Shown: in pieces, positions 3,518 to 14,900 of the stretch
How the letters are laid out: every line of letters begins with the position of its first letter
Position numbering within the stretch: position 1 is the first letter of the stretch
Virus record (IMG/VR): IMGVR_UViG_3300023179_000525
Span: 1-23,485 of that record
DNA from: a virus
Strand: one strand, 5' to 3'
Length of the DNA: 23,485 nt
Notes under the pieces: model-generated
Databases searched by the model: none
The model's input: only the letters and a program-made list of their open reading frames with translations
What the model was told of the DNA's origin: nothing
Made by a program: the position numbers and the translations under genes

Positions 3518-3784
3518 ATGGAACCAATAAAATTAACTGAAGAAGAACTTAATAAGTTCGCAGAATTTAATCAAAAAAATAATGACCTTGTTTACAAACT
3601 TGGAAATTTAGACCTTACTAAAGTACAAATTGAAGAACGCCGTAAAGAATTACTTGCATTTTTTATTCAATTAAAAGAAGAGGATGCTGTTTTTTCTCAA
3701 GAATTAACTACAAAGTACGGTGATGGCAATATTAATTTTCAAACAGGAGAATTTATTCCTTTTGACAATTCTATTGAAGATTAA
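3518..3784 (+). CDS. Small coiled-coil protein with C-terminal KYGxGxIN motif (copy 1)
   Basis: An 88-residue, acidic protein. Residues about 5-65 look helical and coiled-coil forming (Glu/Lys/Leu/Ile heptad-like pattern), followed by a compact tail ELTTKYGDGNINFQTGEF. The same tail occurs in the product at 8747 (ELQAKYGNGTINLDKGEI), so the two genes are paralogues. Both follow a probable virion-surface gene by about 28 bases. Possible roles are a fibre-associated assembly helper or a small structural protein. No named family was recognised. The leader is A-rich without a Shine-Dalgarno sequence, as elsewhere in the window. Confidence 0.68.
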   Translation: MEPIKLTEEELNKFAEFNQKNNDLVYKLGNLDLTKVQIEERRKELLAFFIQLKEEDAVFSQELTTKYGDGNINFQTGEFIPFDNSIED

Positions 3785-3810: not shown

Positions 3811-5802
3811 ATGGAAAAACTACTATATGTAGCCCCCCATTTATCGACTGGGGGGTTGCCTCAATATTTAACTAAAAAAATAGAACTATTAAAAGATAGT
3901 TTTGAAATCTATTTAGTTGAATGGTCGGATTGTACTGGAGGTGTATTAGTAGTTACTAGAAATAAAATTGTAAAGCTTGTTGATAAAGACAAGTTTTTTA
4001 CTCTAGGGGAAAACAAACAAGAACTTATTGATATTATAAACCAGGTGAAACCAGATATTATCCATTTAGAGGAAATACCTGAGTTTTTTATGGATTTTGA
4101 TATTGCAAACCAAATTTATACTAAGGATAGAACATATAAGATTGTAGAAACATCTCACGATTCATCTTATGATATAACTCAAAAGAAATTTTATCCTGAC
4201 AAGTTTATGTTTGTGTCTCAATGGCAAATAAATCAGTATAAAGATATAGACATTCCTAAAGTATTAGTTGAATATCCTATAGAATATATTGAAAGACCGG
4301 ATAGAACAGAGGCATTACAAAAATTAGGATTAGATCCTAATAAAAAACATATTTTACATATTGGCTTATTTACTCCTCGTAAAAATCAAGCTGAGTTTTT
4401 TGCATATGCTAAAGCATTACCACAATATGAATTCCATTGTGTAGGTAATCAAGCAGACAATTTTAGACATTATTGGGAACCATTAATGAATGATAAGCCT
4501 GATAATTTAACTTGGTGGAATGAAAGAACAGATGTAGATGCTTTTTATCAAGCAATGGATTTATTCTTATTTACCTCCAGAGGTACAAACAATGATAAAG
4601 AAACAATGCCTTTAGTAATTAGGGAGGCCGTTTCAAATCAAATACCAATTTTAATTCATAATCTACCTGTATACTTAAATTATTGGGATGATTATGATGT
4701 TAATTATTTAGATACAACAGATTTTAGTTATAATCTAAGTTTAATTGAATCAAGTTTAAACTCTAACAATTATATAAATGTAGAGGAGGAAGCATTTGTA
4801 ATATCAACTTACCCAATATTAAATTCAGTAACAAAAACCACTATAGAATGTATTGAGGCTTTAAAACAAACAGGTAGAAAAATTATTTTAACATCACATT
4901 TACCTATTCCTAAAGAATTACAAGAGTTAGTTGATTACTGTGTTTATGATAAAAATAATTTATTAACGAAACATACATTTTACAATTATACTTGGTTTGA
5001 TTATGATACTTGGAAAGTTGGTTTATGGCTAACAGGAGAAAATAATAATGTTTATCATGGTCCTTCTGTTTACACAAATTACTATAATGGGGCTGCTTTA
5101 GCTGAAAAATTAGGTATTAAAAAAGTATATTTCTTAAATTATGATTATGTTTTAAAAGACTCAACTTTTATAGATAATGTATCTTTAATCTTAAACCAGA
5201 AAAAAGCATATGTTGGAATAAAAGAAGAACAAGAAGGAGAAACAGTTATAACTTATTTTCTAGCTACAGAACCTAAATTTTATTTAAACCATTTTCCCTT
5301 AGTTCAAACCTCTAAAGAATATGATGATTTGATGATTGAGTGGGAAAGTGAATCTAATGGTTTAGAAAATTTAACTTATTGTGCTCTTCAAAAATCAAAA
5401 AATCAAATATATTGGGAAAATCAAGAAACATTTAGTAGCTTAATTGAAAACAATTTTGAACATAAAAATTATTCAAGAGTAGAATATTTTTCTGTATTAC
5501 CAGTTAAAAACTACTCTACTCAATTTGCTGTATTTTTAAATGTATCTAATTCTACAGACAATAGAGATATTGAAATAGCTGTTTATGAGGATGATAAAAT
5601 GTTGTTTGATGAAACAGTAAAAGTAACTCATAAATTATCTTGGTTTAGACAAGTAACATTTGATCCTGAAAAAATATATAAAGTATACTATATGGCTTTT
5701 GATAGATATAATCAAGCATTAGTTGAAGAGAAAAAAATTATTATAGACAAAGAATATTTTGAAAACCAATTACCTAAAAATGGAGTTTTAACATTATCAT
5801 GA
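3811..5802 (+). CDS. Large multidomain glycosyltransferase (GT-B GT4-type plus second transferase-like domain and C-terminal beta domain)
   Basis: Residues about 1-320 form a GT4-type GT-B enzyme. The N-terminal LLYVAPHLSTGGLPQYL has the family's GG loop, HILHIGLFTPRKNQ opens the donor domain, and ETMPLVIRE gives the E-x7-E signature (E264/E272). Residues about 325-540 start a second domain (VISTYPILNSVTKTTIECI, then IILTSHLPIPKELQ) that resembles a GT-A-like or capsule-synthesis transferase half, but I see no clear DxD. The last ~100 residues look like a beta-sandwich and resemble the N-terminal domain of the TibC-like enzyme at 6727. At 663 residues it is a fusion compared with a typical ~350-residue GT4 protein. 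Its stop overlaps the next start (ATGA). Bases 3833-3855 near the start form an unusual GC hairpin. Confidence 0.82.
   Translation: MEKLLYVAPHLSTGGLPQYLTKKIELLKDSFEIYLVEWSDCTGGVLVVTRNKIVKLVDKDKFFTLGENKQELIDIINQVKPDIIHLEEIPEFFMDFDIANQIYTKDRTYKIVETSHDSSYDITQKKFYPDKFMFVSQWQINQYKDIDIPKVLVEYPIEYIERPDRTEALQKLGLDPNKKHILHIGLFTPRKNQAEFFAYAKALPQYEFHCVGNQADNFRHYWEPLMNDKPDNLTWWNERTDVDAFYQAMDLFLFTSRGTNNDKETMPLVIREAVSNQIPILIHNLPVYLNYWDDYDVNYLDTTDFSYNLSLIESSLNSNNYINVEEEAFVISTYPILNSVTKTTIECIEALKQTGRKIILTSHLPIPKELQELVDYCVYDKNNLLTKHTFYNYTWFDYDTWKVGLWLTGENNNVYHGPSVYTNYYNGAALAEKLGIKKVYFLNYDYVLKDSTFIDNVSLILNQKKAYVGIKEEQEGETVITYFLATEPKFYLNHFPLVQTSKEYDDLMIEWESESNGLENLTYCALQKSKNQIYWENQETFSSLIENNFEHKNYSRVEYFSVLPVKNYSTQFAVFLNVSNSTDNRDIEIAVYEDDKMLFDETVKVTHKLSWFRQVTFDPEKIYKVYYMAFDRYNQALVEEKKIIIDKEYFENQLPKNGVLTLS
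3833..3855 (+). promoter_or_regulatory. GC-only hairpin inside codons 8-15 of the large glycosyltransferase gene
   Basis: Seven perfect pairs (CCCCCCA with TGGGGGG) enclose a 9-base loop, starting 22 bases after the A of the start codon. The stem extends by a G-T wobble and an A-T pair. It uses GCC, CCC, GGG and GGG codons, which are rare in this AT-rich gene. It could control translation initiation or early elongation. The role is inferred; the structure is directly visible. Confidence 0.55.
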
Positions 5803-6746
5803 AAATTTGTCAAGTAAATCCAGGATGCGGAATACCAATTCCTCCACCTTCATGGGGTGCAATTGAAAAAATTGTATGGGAGCTTACATGTAATTTAAAA
5901 GAATTAGGCCATGAAGTTGATATAAAATGGGCCAATGAAATCCAACCAGGTGAATATGATTTAGTGATGGTACACGTGGCTAATTTAGCGTTAGAATTGG
6001 CGTCTAATAACGTATCGTATGTATTTCAACACCACGATCACCATGCTTATCATTATGGAAAGGACTCCACTATATATAAACAAAATAAAGAAGCAATGGA
6101 AAAATCTATTTTTTCTTTAGTGCCGGCTCGTTACTTAGTTGATTATTTTGATTTGCCTAATGTGCATTATTTTTCTCATGGAGTAAATATAGATACATTT
6201 AAACCAAATGATACAACCCCTATATATCATAGCTTACTAATGTTGGCAAATAATGGTTTAGGTGGTTATGGTTCATATGATAGGAAAGGATTTGAGTTAG
6301 GTGTTAAAGTAGCTATGTCTCGTAATCTACCTATTACAATAGCTGGACCTAAAAACAATGAAAATTGGTTTAATGATAATCCGTGGGTATTTGGTTATCC
6401 TAAATTAAGCATTTTAAATGAACCATCTAATAAACAATTAAGACAGCTTTATAATTCACATACTATATTTTTACATCCTAGTGACTTGGAGGCAGGTCAT
6501 CCTAATCTTACATTATTAGAGGCTGCAGCCTGTGGTTTACCTATTTTAGGATGTATTGAGGAAGAAACAATATTTCATGGTTTATGGAGAGCACCTCGTG
6601 ACTTAAACTTGTTACTCCAGGGACTAGATGTTATCATTGACGAATACAACCAATATAAACAAAACGCTTTAAATACATCTCAAGAATTATCTTGGTTAAA
6701 CCGTTCTAAAGACTTAATACAGTTATATGAAAGACTTACTAATTAA
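5799..6746 (+). CDS. GT4-family glycosyltransferase
   Basis: A 315-residue GT-B enzyme. The N terminus, MKICQVNPGCGIPIPPPSWGA followed by IEKIVWEL, is the acceptor-domain start of GT4 proteins that open with a PP-x-x-GGIE-like loop. The middle has HGVNIDTFKP, a very common GT4 linker between the two Rossmann domains. The donor domain has HPSDLEAGHPNLTLLEAAA followed by CGLPILG, the family's retaining-transferase signature, although the usual E-x7-E spacing is shifted (E-x9-E). There is no signal peptide or membrane helix. Its ATG overlaps the upstream stop (ATGA), and its own end overlaps the next gene by 20 bases, so translation of the three transferases is probably coupled. Donor sugar and acceptor are unknown. 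Confidence 0.86.
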   Translation: MKICQVNPGCGIPIPPPSWGAIEKIVWELTCNLKELGHEVDIKWANEIQPGEYDLVMVHVANLALELASNNVSYVFQHHDHHAYHYGKDSTIYKQNKEAMEKSIFSLVPARYLVDYFDLPNVHYFSHGVNIDTFKPNDTTPIYHSLLMLANNGLGGYGSYDRKGFELGVKVAMSRNLPITIAGPKNNENWFNDNPWVFGYPKLSILNEPSNKQLRQLYNSHTIFLHPSDLEAGHPNLTLLEAAACGLPILGCIEEETIFHGLWRAPRDLNLLLQGLDVIIDEYNQYKQNALNTSQELSWLNRSKDLIQLYERLTN

Positions 6747-8746: not shown

Positions 8747-8998
8747 ATGGCAACACAAGTTTTAGAACAAGAAGAAATCCAATCAATTAAGGATTTACAA
8801 ACAAAGAGAGAACAGTTAATGTCTGATTTCGGTTTTATCGAAATGAGAATTCAAGAATTAGAATTGCAAAAAGAAAATTTAATTAATCTTTTAGTAGAAA
8901 TTAGAAATTCTGAAGCTACTTTAAGTAATGAACTCCAAGCTAAGTATGGTAACGGTACCATTAACTTAGACAAAGGAGAAATTACTATTGTGGATTAA
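8747..8998 (+). CDS. Small coiled-coil protein with C-terminal KYGxGxIN motif (copy 2)
   Basis: An 83-residue, acidic, largely helical protein. Residues about 5-68 show a coiled-coil-like pattern (QELELQKENLINLLVEI), followed by ELQAKYGNGTINLDKGEI and a short acidic end. The tail matches the product at 3518, making the two genes paralogues that have diverged strongly in the helical part. Here it lies directly between a fibre-like gene and the tail sheath. A fibre-assembly helper or a small tail component are both possible. I recognise no characterised family. Confidence 0.68.
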   Translation: MATQVLEQEEIQSIKDLQTKREQLMSDFGFIEMRIQELELQKENLINLLVEIRNSEATLSNELQAKYGNGTINLDKGEITIVD

Positions 8999-9055: not shown

Positions 9056-10810
9056 ATGGCATCAACACTAACATCACCTGGCGTACTTTCAATTGAGAAC
9101 GATCAGTCGTTTATTACGCAACAACCTATAACTGTAGGAGCCGCCATTATTGGCCCTACTGTTTTGGGTCCTGTAGAAACACCTACAGTTGTTACCTCAT
9201 ACAGCGATTATAAAAATAAATTTGGTTCAACTTTTATTAGTGGAAGCCAAGTTTATACTTATTTTACATCAATTGCTGCTTTTAACTATTTTAACAACGG
9301 TGGAGAATCATTATTAGTAGCTAGGGTAGTTAGTGGTGCTTTTTCATCTGCATTTACTTCTGCATCAGCTGCTACAAACCCAACAGCAAACGGAAGTGGT
9401 ATTTTAAACTCTAACAACTCCGAATCAATTGTATTAAGTACTCTTTCACAAGGTACTATCATGAACAGTTCTTGTTCATTGGATGCTAGTGGATCTTTAA
9501 ACGCCTCAGGTTCACAAAATAACATTAGATGGCAAATTGTTAATAACGATACAGCATCTGGAACTTTTAGTTTGTTGATTCGTGAAGGTGATGATAATAC
9601 AAACAACCCTGTTACTTTAGAAACTTGGACAAACTTATCTATGGATCCAACAGCTCCAAACTATGTATCTAGAGTAGTTGGTAACCAAGTTAAAGCTTAT
9701 AATTCCCTAGATAATCAAATCACAGTAACTGGTGATTTCCCTAATGCTTCAAAATATGTTTATGTAAGTGCAGTTAAAACTCCTACTCCATTGTATTTTG
9801 ATAACACAGGTATTGCAAAATCTCAGTACACATCATCTATTCCAGTAAACGCTTCAGGATCATTTGCAGGTGCTTCTGGTAATTTATTTGGAGCCGGAGC
9901 TACTTATTATAATAACATCGTATTAAGTTCTACAAATATTCAAGGTTTGTTAAGCTCAAGCTACGATAATATGATTAATTTGTTAGCTAATACTGATGAT
10001 TACAGATTTAACGTATTGATGACTCCTGGTTTGTTTGCTAACGCTGCTGCTTTAGGATCTTCTCAAGTAACTTCTATTATTAACAACACAATGAATCGTG
10101 GTGATAATATTTACGTATCTGATTTAGTACCTTTCAGCTCAAGCATTACAGAAGTAACTAACGCATCAAACGCTAAAAATACTTCATACGCTGCTTCATA
10201 CTGGCCTTGGGTTCAAACAGTTGATCCAGATTCTGCTCAATTAGTTTGGGTTCCTGCCTCAACTATGATAGGTGGTGTTTATGCTTACAACGATTCAGTA
10301 TCTGAGCCTTGGTTCGCACCAGCTGGTATTAACAGAGGTGGATTAAGTAGTGTAGTAAGAGCTGAAAAGAAATTATCTCAAGCTAACCGTGATACTTTAT
10401 ACACAAATAAAGTTAATCCAATTGCTACTTTCCCTGGAACAGGAGTTGTAGTTTATGGACAGAAAACATTACAAACTAAAGCAAGTGCTTTGGATCGTGT
10501 AAACGTTCGTCGTCTGTTGATTGCTCTTAAATCTTATATCGGTCAAGTTGCTAATAACTTAGTGTTCGAACAAAACACAATTGCAACTCGTACAAGTTTC
10601 TTGAACCAAGTTAATCCATACTTAGAATCAGTACAACAACGTCAAGGTTTGTATGCTTTTAAAGTAGTAATGGATTCAAGCAACAACACTCCAGATGTAA
10701 TTGACAGAAATCAATTAGTAGGACAGATTTACTTACAACCAACTAAGACTGCTGAATTCGTTTACTTGAACTTCAACATCTTACCAACTGGAGTATCTTT
10801 CCCAGCATAA
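9056..10810 (+). CDS. Contractile tail sheath protein (T4 gp18-like)
   Basis: This forms the contractile outer sheath of the tail. The N terminus (SPGVLSIENDQS) is the standard sheath opening, followed by a strand-rich domain with AAIIGPTVLGPVETPTVV. The middle (about residues 110-330) is a variable Ser/Asn/Gly-rich domain likely exposed on the tail surface. The C-terminal core is highly typical: GVVVYGQKTLQTKAS, then LDRVNVRRLLIALKSYI, FEQNTIATRTSFLNQVNPYL and a final strand with AEFVYLNFNILPTGVSF. At 584 residues the length suits a T4-type sheath (gp18 is about 660). Codon use is richer in C/G-ending codons than in the glycosyltransferases, as expected for an abundant protein. The tube gene follows 46 bases later. 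Confidence 0.95.
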   Translation: MASTLTSPGVLSIENDQSFITQQPITVGAAIIGPTVLGPVETPTVVTSYSDYKNKFGSTFISGSQVYTYFTSIAAFNYFNNGGESLLVARVVSGAFSSAFTSASAATNPTANGSGILNSNNSESIVLSTLSQGTIMNSSCSLDASGSLNASGSQNNIRWQIVNNDTASGTFSLLIREGDDNTNNPVTLETWTNLSMDPTAPNYVSRVVGNQVKAYNSLDNQITVTGDFPNASKYVYVSAVKTPTPLYFDNTGIAKSQYTSSIPVNASGSFAGASGNLFGAGATYYNNIVLSSTNIQGLLSSSYDNMINLLANTDDYRFNVLMTPGLFANAAALGSSQVTSIINNTMNRGDNIYVSDLVPFSSSITEVTNASNAKNTSYAASYWPWVQTVDPDSAQLVWVPASTMIGGVYAYNDSVSEPWFAPAGINRGGLSSVVRAEKKLSQANRDTLYTNKVNPIATFPGTGVVVYGQKTLQTKASALDRVNVRRLLIALKSYIGQVANNLVFEQNTIATRTSFLNQVNPYLESVQQRQGLYAFKVVMDSSNNTPDVIDRNQLVGQIYLQPTKTAEFVYLNFNILPTGVSFPA

Positions 10811-10856: not shown

Positions 10857-11345
10857 ATGGCAGTATTAGATCCAAACGAAATATTTTTCACAGCCTTTGA
10901 ACCAAAGCAGGCTAACCGATTCATTATGTATATTGACGGTATACCAGCGTATGAGATTAAAGGTGTTGGTGCAGTCACGTTAACCCAAGGTACCGTTCCT
11001 TTAAATCATATTAACGTACAACGTTTTGTGAAAGGTAAAACTACTTGGGGTACTATCCAGTTCACATTATTCGATCCTATTACACCTTCAGGTGCTCAGG
11101 CGGTAATGGAATGGGTACGTTTACACCACGAATCAGTAACTGGACGTGATGGTTATAGTGATTTCTACAAGAAAGACTTAACATTCGACGTATTAGGACC
11201 TGTAGGTGATATCGTTTCAGAATGGATTATCAAAGGTGCTTTAATTACTGAAGCTAACTTTGGAGATTACAACTGGGATACAGCAGATACAGCAGTTAAT
11301 TTAACAATGACCGTTCAACCTGATTACTGTGTGTTGAATTTCTAA
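10857..11345 (+). CDS. Tail tube protein (T4 gp19-like)
   Basis: This would polymerise into the inner tail tube under the sheath. The 162-residue length matches gp19 proteins (about 163 in T4). Family features include the N-terminal FEPKQANRFIMYIDGIPAY, where the first strand enters the beta-barrel, and VNVTLTQG-type strands. A central region (TTWGTIQFTLFDPITPSG) is followed by the helix AQAVMEWVRLHHES. The end (INKGALITEANFGDYNW-like segment, then LTMTVQPDYCVLNF) is a standard tube C terminus. It sits between sheath and chaperone genes in the canonical order and is closed by a strong terminator 25 bases after the stop. Confidence 0.94.
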   Translation: MAVLDPNEIFFTAFEPKQANRFIMYIDGIPAYEIKGVGAVTLTQGTVPLNHINVQRFVKGKTTWGTIQFTLFDPITPSGAQAVMEWVRLHHESVTGRDGYSDFYKKDLTFDVLGPVGDIVSEWIIKGALITEANFGDYNWDTADTAVNLTMTVQPDYCVLNF

Positions 11346-11444: not shown

Positions 11445-12176
11445 ATGGAAGAAAATAAATTTAAGTTCCCTACCGAAATGGTAGATTTACCTTCAAAAGG
11501 TTTAATTTATCCTGAAGGTTCACCTTTATCTAAAGGTAAAATTGAAATGAAATATATGACGGCTAGAGAAGAAGATATTCTTACTAACCAAGCATATATT
11601 AAACAAGGAGTAGTTTTAGATAAATTGCTTCAATCATTAATTATTACTGATATAAATTACGATGATTTAATTGTAGGTGATAAAAATGCATTATTTATTG
11701 CTGCTCGTATTTTAGGTTATGGAGGTAATTATACATTTGAATATGATGGCCAATCTCATACTGTAGATTTATCTACTTTAAATAATAAGGAATTTAATGA
11801 ATCTTTAATAACTAAAGGTGTTAATGAATTCCATTTTACCCTCCCATATTCAGAAACCAAAATTACTTTTAAAATATTAACATCAGCAGATGAAAAGAAA
11901 ATTGAAAAGGAATTAACTGGTCTTAAAAAAATTAACAAAGACAATTCCCCAGAATTATCTACTCGTTTAAAATATATTATTACTTCGGTTGGAGGAGATA
12001 GAGACGAAAAACCAATCCGTGAATTTGTTGATAATTACTTATTAGCCAGAGATTCTAGAGCATTAAGAGAATACATTAAATCTATCCAACCAGATGTAGA
12101 TTTAAATTATACTTTAAGTAGTGGAGCGGAGGTCACTATTCCTATTTCCCTCAACTTTTTTTGGCCTGACGCTTAA
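11445..12176 (+). CDS. T4 gp26-type baseplate/tail assembly chaperone
   Basis: The 243-residue product resembles the T4 gp26 'T4_baseplate' group of hub-assembly chaperones. Its N terminus has VDLPSKGLIYPEGSPLSKG, then IEMKYMTAREEDILTN, a block conserved in these proteins. It is followed by helical and strand segments (LLQSLIITDINYDDLIVGDK) and an end in EVTIPISLNFFWPDA. Its position between tube and tape measure is where tail chaperones normally lie, and those are often made in two forms by frameshifting. Near the 3' end the FFW codons form a seven-T run (12156-12162), from which a +1 slip would enter the overlapping frame at 12118-12450. The gene is bracketed by two terminators, so it appears to be a separate unit. 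Confidence 0.75.
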   Translation: MEENKFKFPTEMVDLPSKGLIYPEGSPLSKGKIEMKYMTAREEDILTNQAYIKQGVVLDKLLQSLIITDINYDDLIVGDKNALFIAARILGYGGNYTFEYDGQSHTVDLSTLNNKEFNESLITKGVNEFHFTLPYSETKITFKILTSADEKKIEKELTGLKKINKDNSPELSTRLKYIITSVGGDRDEKPIREFVDNYLLARDSRALREYIKSIQPDVDLNYTLSSGAEVTIPISLNFFWPDA

Positions 12177-12450
12177 TATAGCACCACAGGTTAGAATTAA
12201 CTTATTTACCCAAATCCACGAAATAGTATTTCATGGAAATGGAGGTTATGATTGGCATACAATATACAATATGCCTATTTGGCTACGTAAATTTACATTT
12301 TCTAAATTAAGAGATTACCATTCACCAAAAGATGAAAATAATGTTGAAAAATCTATTAATAATTTAAAATCAGCAGGTGTACCAAATACTAAACCTCCAA
12401 TATCAAAAATTACACCCCCATCATATATTACTAAGGCATCAAAAAAATGA
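12121..12450 (+). CDS. gp51-like second chaperone frame (own GTG start or frameshift extension of the upstream gene)
   Basis: The overlapping frame ends in a TGA at 12448-12450. The protein-like part, NLFTQIHEIVFHGNGGYDWH followed by TIYNMPIWLRKFTFSKLRDY, resembles the short gp51-type proteins that follow gp26 in T4-like phages and contain a MP-x-x-LR-x-F motif. The C-terminal tail is Lys/Pro-rich and probably flexible. The frame has no ATG or TTG. The only conventional start is a GTG at 12121, which would encode an unlikely leader (MERRSLFLFPS) read out of frame from the gp26 end. Expression by +1 slippage at 12156-12162 is therefore an attractive alternative. The last codons lie within the downstream terminator stem. 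Confidence 0.65.
   Translation: MERRSLFLFPSTFFGLTLNIAPQVRINLFTQIHEIVFHGNGGYDWHTIYNMPIWLRKFTFSKLRDYHSPKDENNVEKSINNLKSAGVPNTKPPISKITPPSYITKASKK
12156..12162 (+). other. Candidate +1 programmed frameshift site (T7 run)
   Basis: In the upstream frame the codons read AAC TTT TTT TGG. Moving one base forward keeps TTT in both the P and A sites and continues as GGC CTG ACG into the downstream frame. The downstream frame is open only from 12118 (TAA at 12115-12117), so any switch must fall between there and the upstream stop at 12174. A shift would give a fused protein of about 334 residues. This is hypothetical. Confidence 0.45.
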
Positions 12451-12482: not shown

Positions 12483-14900
12483 ATGGCTGATAAAACTACT
12501 AAATTTTCTAAAGAAGACGTTGAAAATGTTAAAGATTTTAGCGATGCCTTTAAAAATGTTAATAAAGAAGTTGATGAATTATTTTCAGGATTAAATTCTA
12601 TTGGAGATGAAATAAAAGGTCAAGTTCAAGGTTATCAATTAGCTAATAAAGCTGTAAATAATCTTACTGGTGTTTTTGGTAAATTAAAAGATATTCAAGA
12701 AAATATCAAAACTACCAATTCTAAAGATTTAAAATCTCTCCAAGAAAAAGCACTATCTGAAAAGAAAAATTTAGTAGAATCTCAACGTTTATTACAGGTT
12801 AAAGCAACAACATTTGGTTTAACTGAAAAAGAAGTAGCTACTTTAGCAAACGTAAATGGTCTTTTAGAAACACAAGAAGGTTTATATCAAAATATTGAAG
12901 ACACTTTAAACCAAATAGTTCAAAATGAACAAATAGTTGAAGATACTTTAGGTAATTTAGGAACATTAACTGAAGGTTTTAGTTCAGGTTTAAAAAAAGC
13001 AGGCTTAGGAGCTCTTGATACTAGATTAAGTTTAGGAGATGCTTTGCAAAAAACTAAAGACATGGTACTTGCTGGAGAAGGCAACGTTTCTAATTTAGAA
13101 GCATCCAAGTTCCTAGCAAAAGAATTAGGTACTAATTTAATTAAATCTGTAGATGCCGCATCTTTAGTAGCTGGAGGTGTAAAATTAATGGTAGATGCTC
13201 TTAAATCTGTTGATAGTTTAGCAGGTGATACAGCAAAACAATTTAATTTATCATACAACGAAGCATCCCAATTAAATAATCAATTAACTAATACTGCTGC
13301 TTTATCAATGGATGCAGCTGTAAATACAAAAGGATTAAATGAAAGCATGATGGCTGTAGGTAAAACTTTAGGTTCTAATGCTAAATTAAACGATGCCGAT
13401 TTAATTACTTTTACTAAATTACGAGAACAAGCAGGTTATACTAATGAAGAATTAGCAAGCATACAAACATTATCTTTAGCTAATGGTAAATCATTAGAAA
13501 CTAATACAGCAGAAATATTAGGAGGAGCACAAGCATATGCTTCCCAAAATAAATTAATAGTTAATGAAAAAGAAGTTTTAAAAGAAGTTGGTAAAGCATC
13601 AGCATCTTTAAAATTATCCTTAGGAGGCAGTGCATCAGCCTTAGCTGAATCGGTTGTTAAAGCAAAACAATTTGGATTAAATTTAGAACAAGCTTCTAAA
13701 ATATCTAGTGGATTATTAAATTTTGAAGATTCAATTTCTAGTGAATTAGAAGCAGAACTCCTTACAGGTAAAGATTTAAATTTAGAACAAGCTAGATTAT
13801 TAGCATTAAATGGAGATATAGCAGGAGCAGCAGCCGAAGTAGCTAAACAAGTAGGTTCATCTGCTCAATTTGGTAAAATGAATGTTATCCAACAAGAAGC
13901 AATAGCTAAATCTGTTGGAATGAGTAGAGATGAATTAGCCCAATCTTTAATTGATAAAGAAGCATTAAATAAACTATCAGGAGTAGAAGGTAAAGATGCT
14001 AAAGAAAAATTTGATAATTTAGTTAAACAAGTAGGAATGGAAGAAGCTAAAAAACGTTTAGGTAACGATCAATTAGCAAACCAATTTAAACAACAGTCGG
14101 CTCAAGAAAAAATGACTAATATGGTTGCAAAAATGCAAGAAATATTTATAGCTATAGCTGAACCTATAATGGCAATAGTAACTCCCTTAATTGATTTAGC
14201 AACTAAAGTACTTCCATTAATAAATACTCTTTTATTACCTCTTACTTATACTATGCAAATAATAGGTGAAGGTTTTTCAAATATTCAAAATATAGTAAAT
14301 GCTATGCTTGATCCTACAAAATCATTAGCAGACACATTTAAAGAAATGGGCCCCGTAGCTTCATTTATTGCTGCTGCTTTAGGAGCCGCTGGTATAGCAG
14401 TTGCAACTGTTTTACTCCCAGGACTAATCAGTTCAGCAGGAGCAGCTATAATGGCTTTAGGACCAATGATAGCAACTGCTATGGCCGCTATGTCAACAGC
14501 AATTGCTAGTACTTTAGGGGTAGGTGCTATTCCTATTATAGCAGGAATTGCAGCCGTAGCAGGTACAATTGCCGCAGTAACTTCTATAAGTGATGGAGTT
14601 ATTGATCCTAAAGGAGGATTAGTAGTATCAGGAGAAAAAGGAACATTTAAATTAGATGAAAATGACTCTATTGTAGCAGGTACTGATTTAAATAAATCAA
14701 ATAAATCATCATCTTCTTCTACTTCTACACTACAAAATGATAAAAATACACCACCTCCTCCAGCACCTCAAATTGATTTATCACCATTAATGGAAAGAAT
14801 AAATGTATTAATAGATGCTGTAAAAGCAGGTGGTGATGTTTATTTAGATGCTACTAAAGTAGGTACAGCAATGAATGTAGGAACATACAAAGTTCAATAA
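12483..14900 (+). CDS. Tail tape-measure protein
   Basis: At 805 residues this is much the longest helical protein in the tail module. It lies directly after the tube and chaperone genes, the usual position of the tape measure that sets tail length. Residues about 1-180 are charged, helical and coiled-coil-like. The middle (200-540) is Ala/Leu/Lys-rich helix. Two hydrophobic segments follow, at about 545-600 (MAIVTPLIDLATKVLPLINT) and 625-703 (LGAAGIAVATVLLPGLISSA and more), matching the membrane-active part of tape-measure proteins that helps DNA cross the inner membrane. The C terminus has GGLVVSGEKGTFKLDENDSI, a Ser-rich linker, a proline stretch and a final helix. At about 0.15 nm per residue a tail near 120 nm would be expected. 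Confidence 0.88.
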   Translation: MADKTTKFSKEDVENVKDFSDAFKNVNKEVDELFSGLNSIGDEIKGQVQGYQLANKAVNNLTGVFGKLKDIQENIKTTNSKDLKSLQEKALSEKKNLVESQRLLQVKATTFGLTEKEVATLANVNGLLETQEGLYQNIEDTLNQIVQNEQIVEDTLGNLGTLTEGFSSGLKKAGLGALDTRLSLGDALQKTKDMVLAGEGNVSNLEASKFLAKELGTNLIKSVDAASLVAGGVKLMVDALKSVDSLAGDTAKQFNLSYNEASQLNNQLTNTAALSMDAAVNTKGLNESMMAVGKTLGSNAKLNDADLITFTKLREQAGYTNEELASIQTLSLANGKSLETNTAEILGGAQAYASQNKLIVNEKEVLKEVGKASASLKLSLGGSASALAESVVKAKQFGLNLEQASKISSGLLNFEDSISSELEAELLTGKDLNLEQARLLALNGDIAGAAAEVAKQVGSSAQFGKMNVIQQEAIAKSVGMSRDELAQSLIDKEALNKLSGVEGKDAKEKFDNLVKQVGMEEAKKRLGNDQLANQFKQQSAQEKMTNMVAKMQEIFIAIAEPIMAIVTPLIDLATKVLPLINTLLLPLTYTMQIIGEGFSNIQNIVNAMLDPTKSLADTFKEMGPVASFIAAALGAAGIAVATVLLPGLISSAGAAIMALGPMIATAMAAMSTAIASTLGVGAIPIIAGIAAVAGTIAAVTSISDGVIDPKGGLVVSGEKGTFKLDENDSIVAGTDLNKSNKSSSSSTSTLQNDKNTPPPPAPQIDLSPLMERINVLIDAVKAGGDVYLDATKVGTAMNVGTYKVQ

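Follow-up and report, generated by a model that had tools for sequence, protein, structure and literature searches.

Conservation evidence for a +1 ribosomal frameshift predicted to extend a gp26-type tail protein in relatives of phage T4

Within a 23,485-nt stretch of viral DNA (hereafter the window: positions 1 to 23,485 of IMG/VR record IMGVR_UViG_3300023179_000525), which is a fragment of a T4-like phage with a contractile tail, we found a gene that very probably makes two products, a short gp26-type protein and a long fusion generated by a +1 frameshift, predicted to serve together as a tail-assembly chaperone pair. This reading was derived from sequence comparison, without protein, ribosome-profiling or reporter data. 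Both the occurrence and the frequency of the +1 shift are inferred from sequence conservation, and the role as a chaperone of the tape-measure protein is inferred from gene order together with homology to T4 gp26 and gp51.

The tail genes of the window described here lie on the plus strand. A tail sheath gene (9056–10810; PF04984, E = 8e-14; PF17482, E = 4e-12; phrog_23, E = 1e-70) and a tail tube gene (10857–11345; phrog_4542 tail tube, E = 9.5e-23) precede the gp26-type ORF, to which the tube gene is the immediate 5' neighbor. This ORF (11445–12176, frame 0) encodes the 243-aa "G" product and matched phrog_150 (baseplate hub, E = 2.2e-9). Immediately 3' of the extension domain lies a putative tape-measure gene (12483–14900), which is assigned by position, length and synteny with the tail tape measure protein of Flavobacterium phage immuto and had no significant family match of its own. 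The window gene order thereby bore out the earlier note's placement of two overlapping frames between the tube and tape-measure genes, a G/GT-type arrangement that is syntenic with annotated immuto genes. No tRNA or Rfam family match was found in the window. Elsewhere in the window, two small ORFs (3518–3784 and 8747–8998) carry similar C-termini, KYGDGNINFQTGEF and KYGNGTINLDKGEI, and resemble paralogues.

The gp26-type gene ends in AAC TTT TTT TGG CCT GAC GCT TAA. As first noted from the letters alone, a second frame, offset by +1 from the first ORF, is open from 12118 to 12450 and overlaps the end of that ORF by about 56–59 nt, and the run TTTTTTT at 12156–12162 lies within the overlap, in the register AAC TTT TTT TGG. 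The predicted slip site TTT TTT TGG C occupies 12156–12165, with the P-site TTT at 12159–12161, the zero-frame A-site TGG at 12162–12164 and the +1-frame A-site GGC at 12163–12165. Joining 11445–12161 to 12163–12447 (span 11445–12450) gives a predicted "GT" fusion of 334 aa, with the junction ...LNFF-GLTLN..., in which the +1-frame "T" domain (12163–12450) contributes 95 aa, beginning with GLTLNIAPQ and ending before the stop codon 12448–12450.

In the mechanism that we propose, most ribosomes would stop at TAA 12174 and release the 243-residue gp26-type protein. In a fraction of ribosomes, once TTT occupies the P site and TGG the A site, the Phe-tRNA would slip forward by one base onto the overlapping TTT and GGC would be read next, so that the slipped ribosomes would produce the 334-residue fusion with its helical T domain. 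Both forms, short and long, would then act jointly as a tail-assembly (tape-measure) chaperone pair, like lambda gpG and gpGT. The A-site TGG may be read slowly, as +1 shifting needs. Among bacterial +1 slips, CUU_U has been ranked best and UUU_U lesser (PMC5009743, PMC10885494).

Support for the +1 shift came from relatives. An initial search yielded 80 relatives from IMG/VR. Searching with only the T domain revealed at least 592 encoding stretches among the matches listed, with 80 loci retained, and searches from Microcystis phage Mel-JY01 and phage LR756508 added loci L188–L285, with identities as low as about 40%. In the first set, every relative except one (L061) kept the slip site together with the +1 offset, a few being ended by the contig edge, and nearly all of L188–L285 were also +1. 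Altogether 246 loci or entries were examined, and the T domain showed the conserved pattern GLT...LF.QIHEIVFHG.GGYDW.TVYNMPIWLR in these 246 entries. The same arrangement was present in isolate phages, namely immuto (TTT CTT TGG C), Mel-JY01 and Rhodothermus phage RM378 (both TTT TTT TGG). An assembly error in the T run was ruled out, since isolate genomes and hundreds of independent contigs share the arrangement.

Reduction of the set below 75% identity left 86 representatives, in which the slip site was TTT TTT TGG C in 73, TTT TTT TTC C in five, and TTT TTT TAC C, TTT CTT TGG C, CTT TTT TGG C or TTC TTT TGG C in two each. All 86 share a core consisting of a P-site TTT (84) or CTT (2) followed by T, with TGG, TTC or TAC in the A site and then C. 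In each of the 86, the P-site tRNA could re-pair one base 3', from TTT or CTT onto TTT. The T run singled out in the earlier note thus did mark a conserved slip site, but the essential motif is this TTT/CTT core and not the seven Ts themselves. Codon choice pointed the same way: the P-site Phe was TTT in 84/84, compared with 637/784 (81%) of Phe codons elsewhere in these genes (p about 3e-8, treating the representatives as independent). Among about 70 conserved degenerate positions, zero codon entropy was seen only at the slip Phe and at the Pro two codons on, the latter being CCT in 86/86. The Pro codon is constrained by the overlapping +1 frame as well, whereas the Phe codon would have no such constraint unless the shift occurs. 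Judged by these comparisons, the predicted +1 frameshift site in the gp26-type gene is preserved far beyond chance.

Conservation of this kind also bears on whether the second frame could be a gene in its own right, initiated from GTG 12121 or a different non-ATG codon through translational coupling to the first gene. The frames do overlap, and GTG 12121–12123 is the sole start candidate in the +1 frame upstream of the conserved domain. The statement that the second frame lacks ATG and TTG was accurate up to that domain but not within it, where an ATG occurs at 12271 (in YNMP), 36 codons past the slip; a start there would delete the first two helices of the modelled T domain. No SD precedes the GTG, which is probably unused, and in a relative 93% identical to the window (L003) a TAA stands in the +1 frame directly 5' of the slip. 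Because this stop falls between the GTG position and the slip, a GTG start is impossible there, and the alternative initially offered for the window is excluded in that relative. More broadly, the +1 frame offers no ATG, GTG or TTG ahead of the conserved core in 29 of the 86 representatives, and a +1-frame stop lies no more than 30 nt 5' of the slip in 34. A separate gene would also leave the invariant frame-0 TTT TTT TGG C unexplained.

Relatives whose T domain has its own ATG provided natural controls. Such genes, which had been named beforehand as the observation that would refute a frameshift, do exist (L061, L278 and L283, with Pseudomonas phage Cygsa01 likewise, at TAATG) and speak for independent initiation. 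The slip has, however, decayed in two of the first three, and the +1 frame is closed in the third. In L061 (66% identical), a GIY-YIG homing nuclease gene at 5724–6460 separates the gp26-type gene from the T domain. That domain starts at an ATG of its own (METNEKLRNQLALFGITP...), and the former slip has become TTC TTC TGG CCC GAT, a synonymous decay that retains the residues FFWPD. In L278 the corresponding site is TTC TTG TAT, and in L283 it is the +1 frame that is closed. Slip codons are therefore kept where a shift is needed and are lost or cut off exactly where an ATG is available, which strengthens the case for frameshift use and leaves the separate-gene explanation very unlikely. The existence of relatives with the T domain as a separate gene also means that the fusion is not strictly required. 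With the slip site, the offset and the start-less second frame persisting in hundreds of relatives, the +1 programmed frameshift suggested for the window was upheld as the preferred reading.

Two other routes could produce the same fusion. In the first, RNA polymerase would slip on the seven-T run, leaving a share of mRNAs one U short, and ordinary translation would yield the fusion; the run is a possible slip site in an AT-rich genome, and TTT TTT TGG is kept in 73/86 representatives. Immuto and L127, however, carry TTTCTTTGG, and L268–L282 carry TTCTTTTGG with only four Ts, all with the same +1 domain and offset, and neither the conserved A-site codon nor the C after it would be expected from polymerase slippage. 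The second route is a –2 ribosomal shift, as known in phage Mu (PMC5009743), which would reach the same frame as +1 with one extra residue. Re-pairing two bases back fails for TTC TTT TGG and TTT CTT TGG, and the +1 slip works in all. Relatives lacking the T run (TTT CTT TGG C and TTC TTT TGG C) thus argue against both routes, and we regard polymerase slippage as more improbable still than a separate gene and the –2 shift as the least probable of the three.

For the preferred +1 ribosomal shift, a candidate stimulator was seen 5' of the slip. An element resembling GAGGAGG recurs in this family at a constant distance, about 27 nt 5' of the P-site codon; the window copy is the SD-like GGAGG at 12128–12132, 31 nt 5' of that codon. 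Glu codons at the element were GAG in 79/101, compared with 16% elsewhere (p = 1.6e-39), and anti-SD affinity in the relatives peaked at –34, 8 SD below baseline. An internal ribosome-binding site was not favoured, as no +1-frame start codon at initiation distance from GAGGAGG was found at the sites read. In the absence of such a start, the element may stimulate the shift, a role that is inferred, its function not having been shown and its spacing being unlike that of known stimulators. No conserved RNA structure was detected around the slip, where RNAalifold gave an energy of 0 and z averaged –0.7 downstream, and pairing between the purine element and downstream sequence barely exceeded that of permuted partners (–11.2 versus –10.7). 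Lacking a conserved downstream RNA structure, the identity of the stimulator remains uncertain.

The AlphaFold model of the gp26-type ORF (pLDDT 92) matched viral baseplate-hub/gp26 models with probability 1.0; among the PDB matches listed, the top match probability belonged to the HK97 tail assembly chaperone 2ob9, a weak match (E 1.7, probability 0.28) that is no more than a hint. The T-domain model is helical (helices 7–24, 31–35 and 39–70), with pLDDT >90 over residues 11–50, and its fold matches in the viral library were weak. No solved relative of T4 gp51 was found by sequence.

We then considered how the predicted fusion relates to T4 gp26 and gp51. PF12322 spans residues 1–206 of 208 in T4 gp26 and 1–201 of 249 in gp51, and the two proteins are paralogous (blastp E 7e-6), with gp51 carrying an additional C-terminus. 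The window protein reached phrog_150 but not PF12322, whose cut-off was passed by its relatives in RM378 and in Streptococcus phage vB_SagM-GXN1. When a profile of the +1 fusion family was aligned by hhalign to gp51 combined with the cyanophage fusions, the match crossed the junction and spanned 274 columns (Prob 97.5, E 6e-12); the cyanophage fusions alone gave 97.0 and a reversed control 0.3. Against T4 gp51 alone, neither the +1 fusion family nor the +1 T domain profile (Prob 1–6) was significant, so homology between the fusion and gp51 rests on the cyanophage bridge. The initial idea that the second frame is a separate gp51 was not sustained: the counterpart of gp51 is the whole fusion, and in T4 the proteins gp26 and gp51 are themselves paralogous.

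The cyanophage bridge itself appears to involve a frameshift of the opposite sign. In cyanophages and in Vibrio phage Bakedbeans, the gp26-type gene ends in T TTT TTC and the T domain follows in the –1 frame, with T TTT TTC or T TTT TTT present in 11/13 such genomes read. The alignment of the –1 fusion to T4 gp51 covered 236 columns (Prob 99.1, E 1e-18). In cyanophage S-CAM8, no ATG precedes the T core and gp51 is unannotated. The join between the gp26-type protein and the T domain in cyanophages, Sinorhizobium phage phiN3 and Bakedbeans is thus probably a –1 programmed frameshift, as judged from these alignments, through which the same two forms would be made at the same Phe-Phe position. Such a frameshift would explain why cyanophage gp51 lacks its first ~200 residues, as described by Sullivan et al. 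2010 (PMC3037559). No report of a –1 frameshift at the cyanophage gp26-type gene was found in the literature searched.

Several further arrangements were observed at this locus. Entries from cyanophages, phiN3 and Bakedbeans (L168, L170, L172 and L180–L187) carry T TTT TTC or T TTT TTT with a –1-frame T domain, which either bears the annotation of a short "gp51" or has none. The T domain may start from its own ATG in S-SCSM1 (L169), 22 nt past the gp26 stop, and in Cygsa01 (L171) and S-CRM01 (L183), at a TAATG overlap; these would be variants in which the two parts are unlinked or coupled. Two distant gp26 homologues end in GAA TTC TTT CGT CCC (vB_SagM-GXN1, L086, about 3690–3730) and AAC TTT CTA TTC CCT (LR756508, L084, about 3730–3754), each with an open +1 frame behind, and a +1 slip on TTT-C is possible in both from their sequences. 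A TTT-C +1 slip is of the kind known from influenza PA-X.

In T4, the 3' end of gene 26 reads TTC TTT GAG TTA CTA TAA; gene 25 comes next and a T domain is absent, indicating that no slip takes place there. Given that gp26 and gp51 are paralogues, a duplicated gene rather than a frameshift is the probable source of the long form in T4, the order of events being inferred, and the same two forms would then come from genes 26 and 51. Taking these lines together, we lean towards, without regarding as settled, a scenario in which the T4 superfamily ancestrally had a frameshifted tape-measure chaperone at a Phe-Phe site, with +1 shifting in Bacteroidota-type and far-T4 phages and –1 shifting in cyanophages, and in which gp51 is a duplicate that now encodes the long form in a single frame. 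On this view T4 would be no real exception, gp26 and gp51 being its G/GT.

The earlier note was correct, as a general statement, that –1 is the usual shift in tail chaperones, with +1 and –2 known elsewhere; frameshifts of –1, –2 and +1 have been described for tail chaperones, under a rule said to hold "except T4" (PMC5009743). We found no report of a frameshift in gp26 or gp51 of any T4-like phage in the literature searched, which did not cover most subscription papers. A +1 switch in a large T4-related group would be of the class that most long-tailed phages use and T4 is said to lack, and it may explain the origin of the separate gp51 of T4; if this is true, T4 gp26 and gp51 would both be expected to bind the tape-measure protein gp29. 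Annotated pieces of this locus appear to have been misread, as in S-CAM8 with its missing gp51 and in immuto gp038 (37 aa; L082, 4851–4961), a probable misannotation that begins at an internal ATG and covers only the end of the T domain. Kept across hundreds of genomes, a +1 slip at a sense codon should also be useful for finding further ones.

Compared with known systems, the window resembles lambda G/GT in the order of tube, G, T and tape measure, in having a short and a predicted frameshift-extended form, and in its start-less downstream frame. It differs in shifting +1 rather than –1, in belonging to the T4 gp26 family with no detectable sequence similarity to gpG, and in using a TTT/CTT-T-GG-C core instead of a –1 heptamer. 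By analogy, the window system is seen to work like G/GT, membership of the lambda G family by sequence not having been shown. With T4 gp26/gp51 (PF12322, phrog_150) it shares the gp26-type domain, a gp51-like C-terminal extension in the predicted fusion and an inferred role in hub assembly, whereas in T4 the two paralogues are encoded by separate genes, divergently placed, without a frameshift. Cyanophage gp26 and the short "gp51 baseplate hub assembly catalyst" likewise include a T domain in another frame, matching the C-terminus of T4 gp51, but their join is –1 at T TTT TTC and that of the window is +1. In Bacillus phage 0305phi8-36, G/GT equivalents come from paralogous genes without a frameshift (PMC2147016), a two-gene chaperone like that proposed for T4 gp26/gp51, although in another phage lineage and without homology data behind the likeness.

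At the level of the slip itself, the closest parallels are prfB (CTT TGA C) and yeast Ty1 (CTT AGG C), in which the P-site codon shifts +1 to an overlapping triplet before a slow A-site codon with C next. The prfB A site holds a stop and that of the window the sense codon TGG, and the SD-like element is only 3 nt away in bacterial prfB compared with about 27 nt in the window family, further upstream than in prfB or dnaX. The CTT TGG C of immuto is a site of the same type as those of prfB and Ty1.
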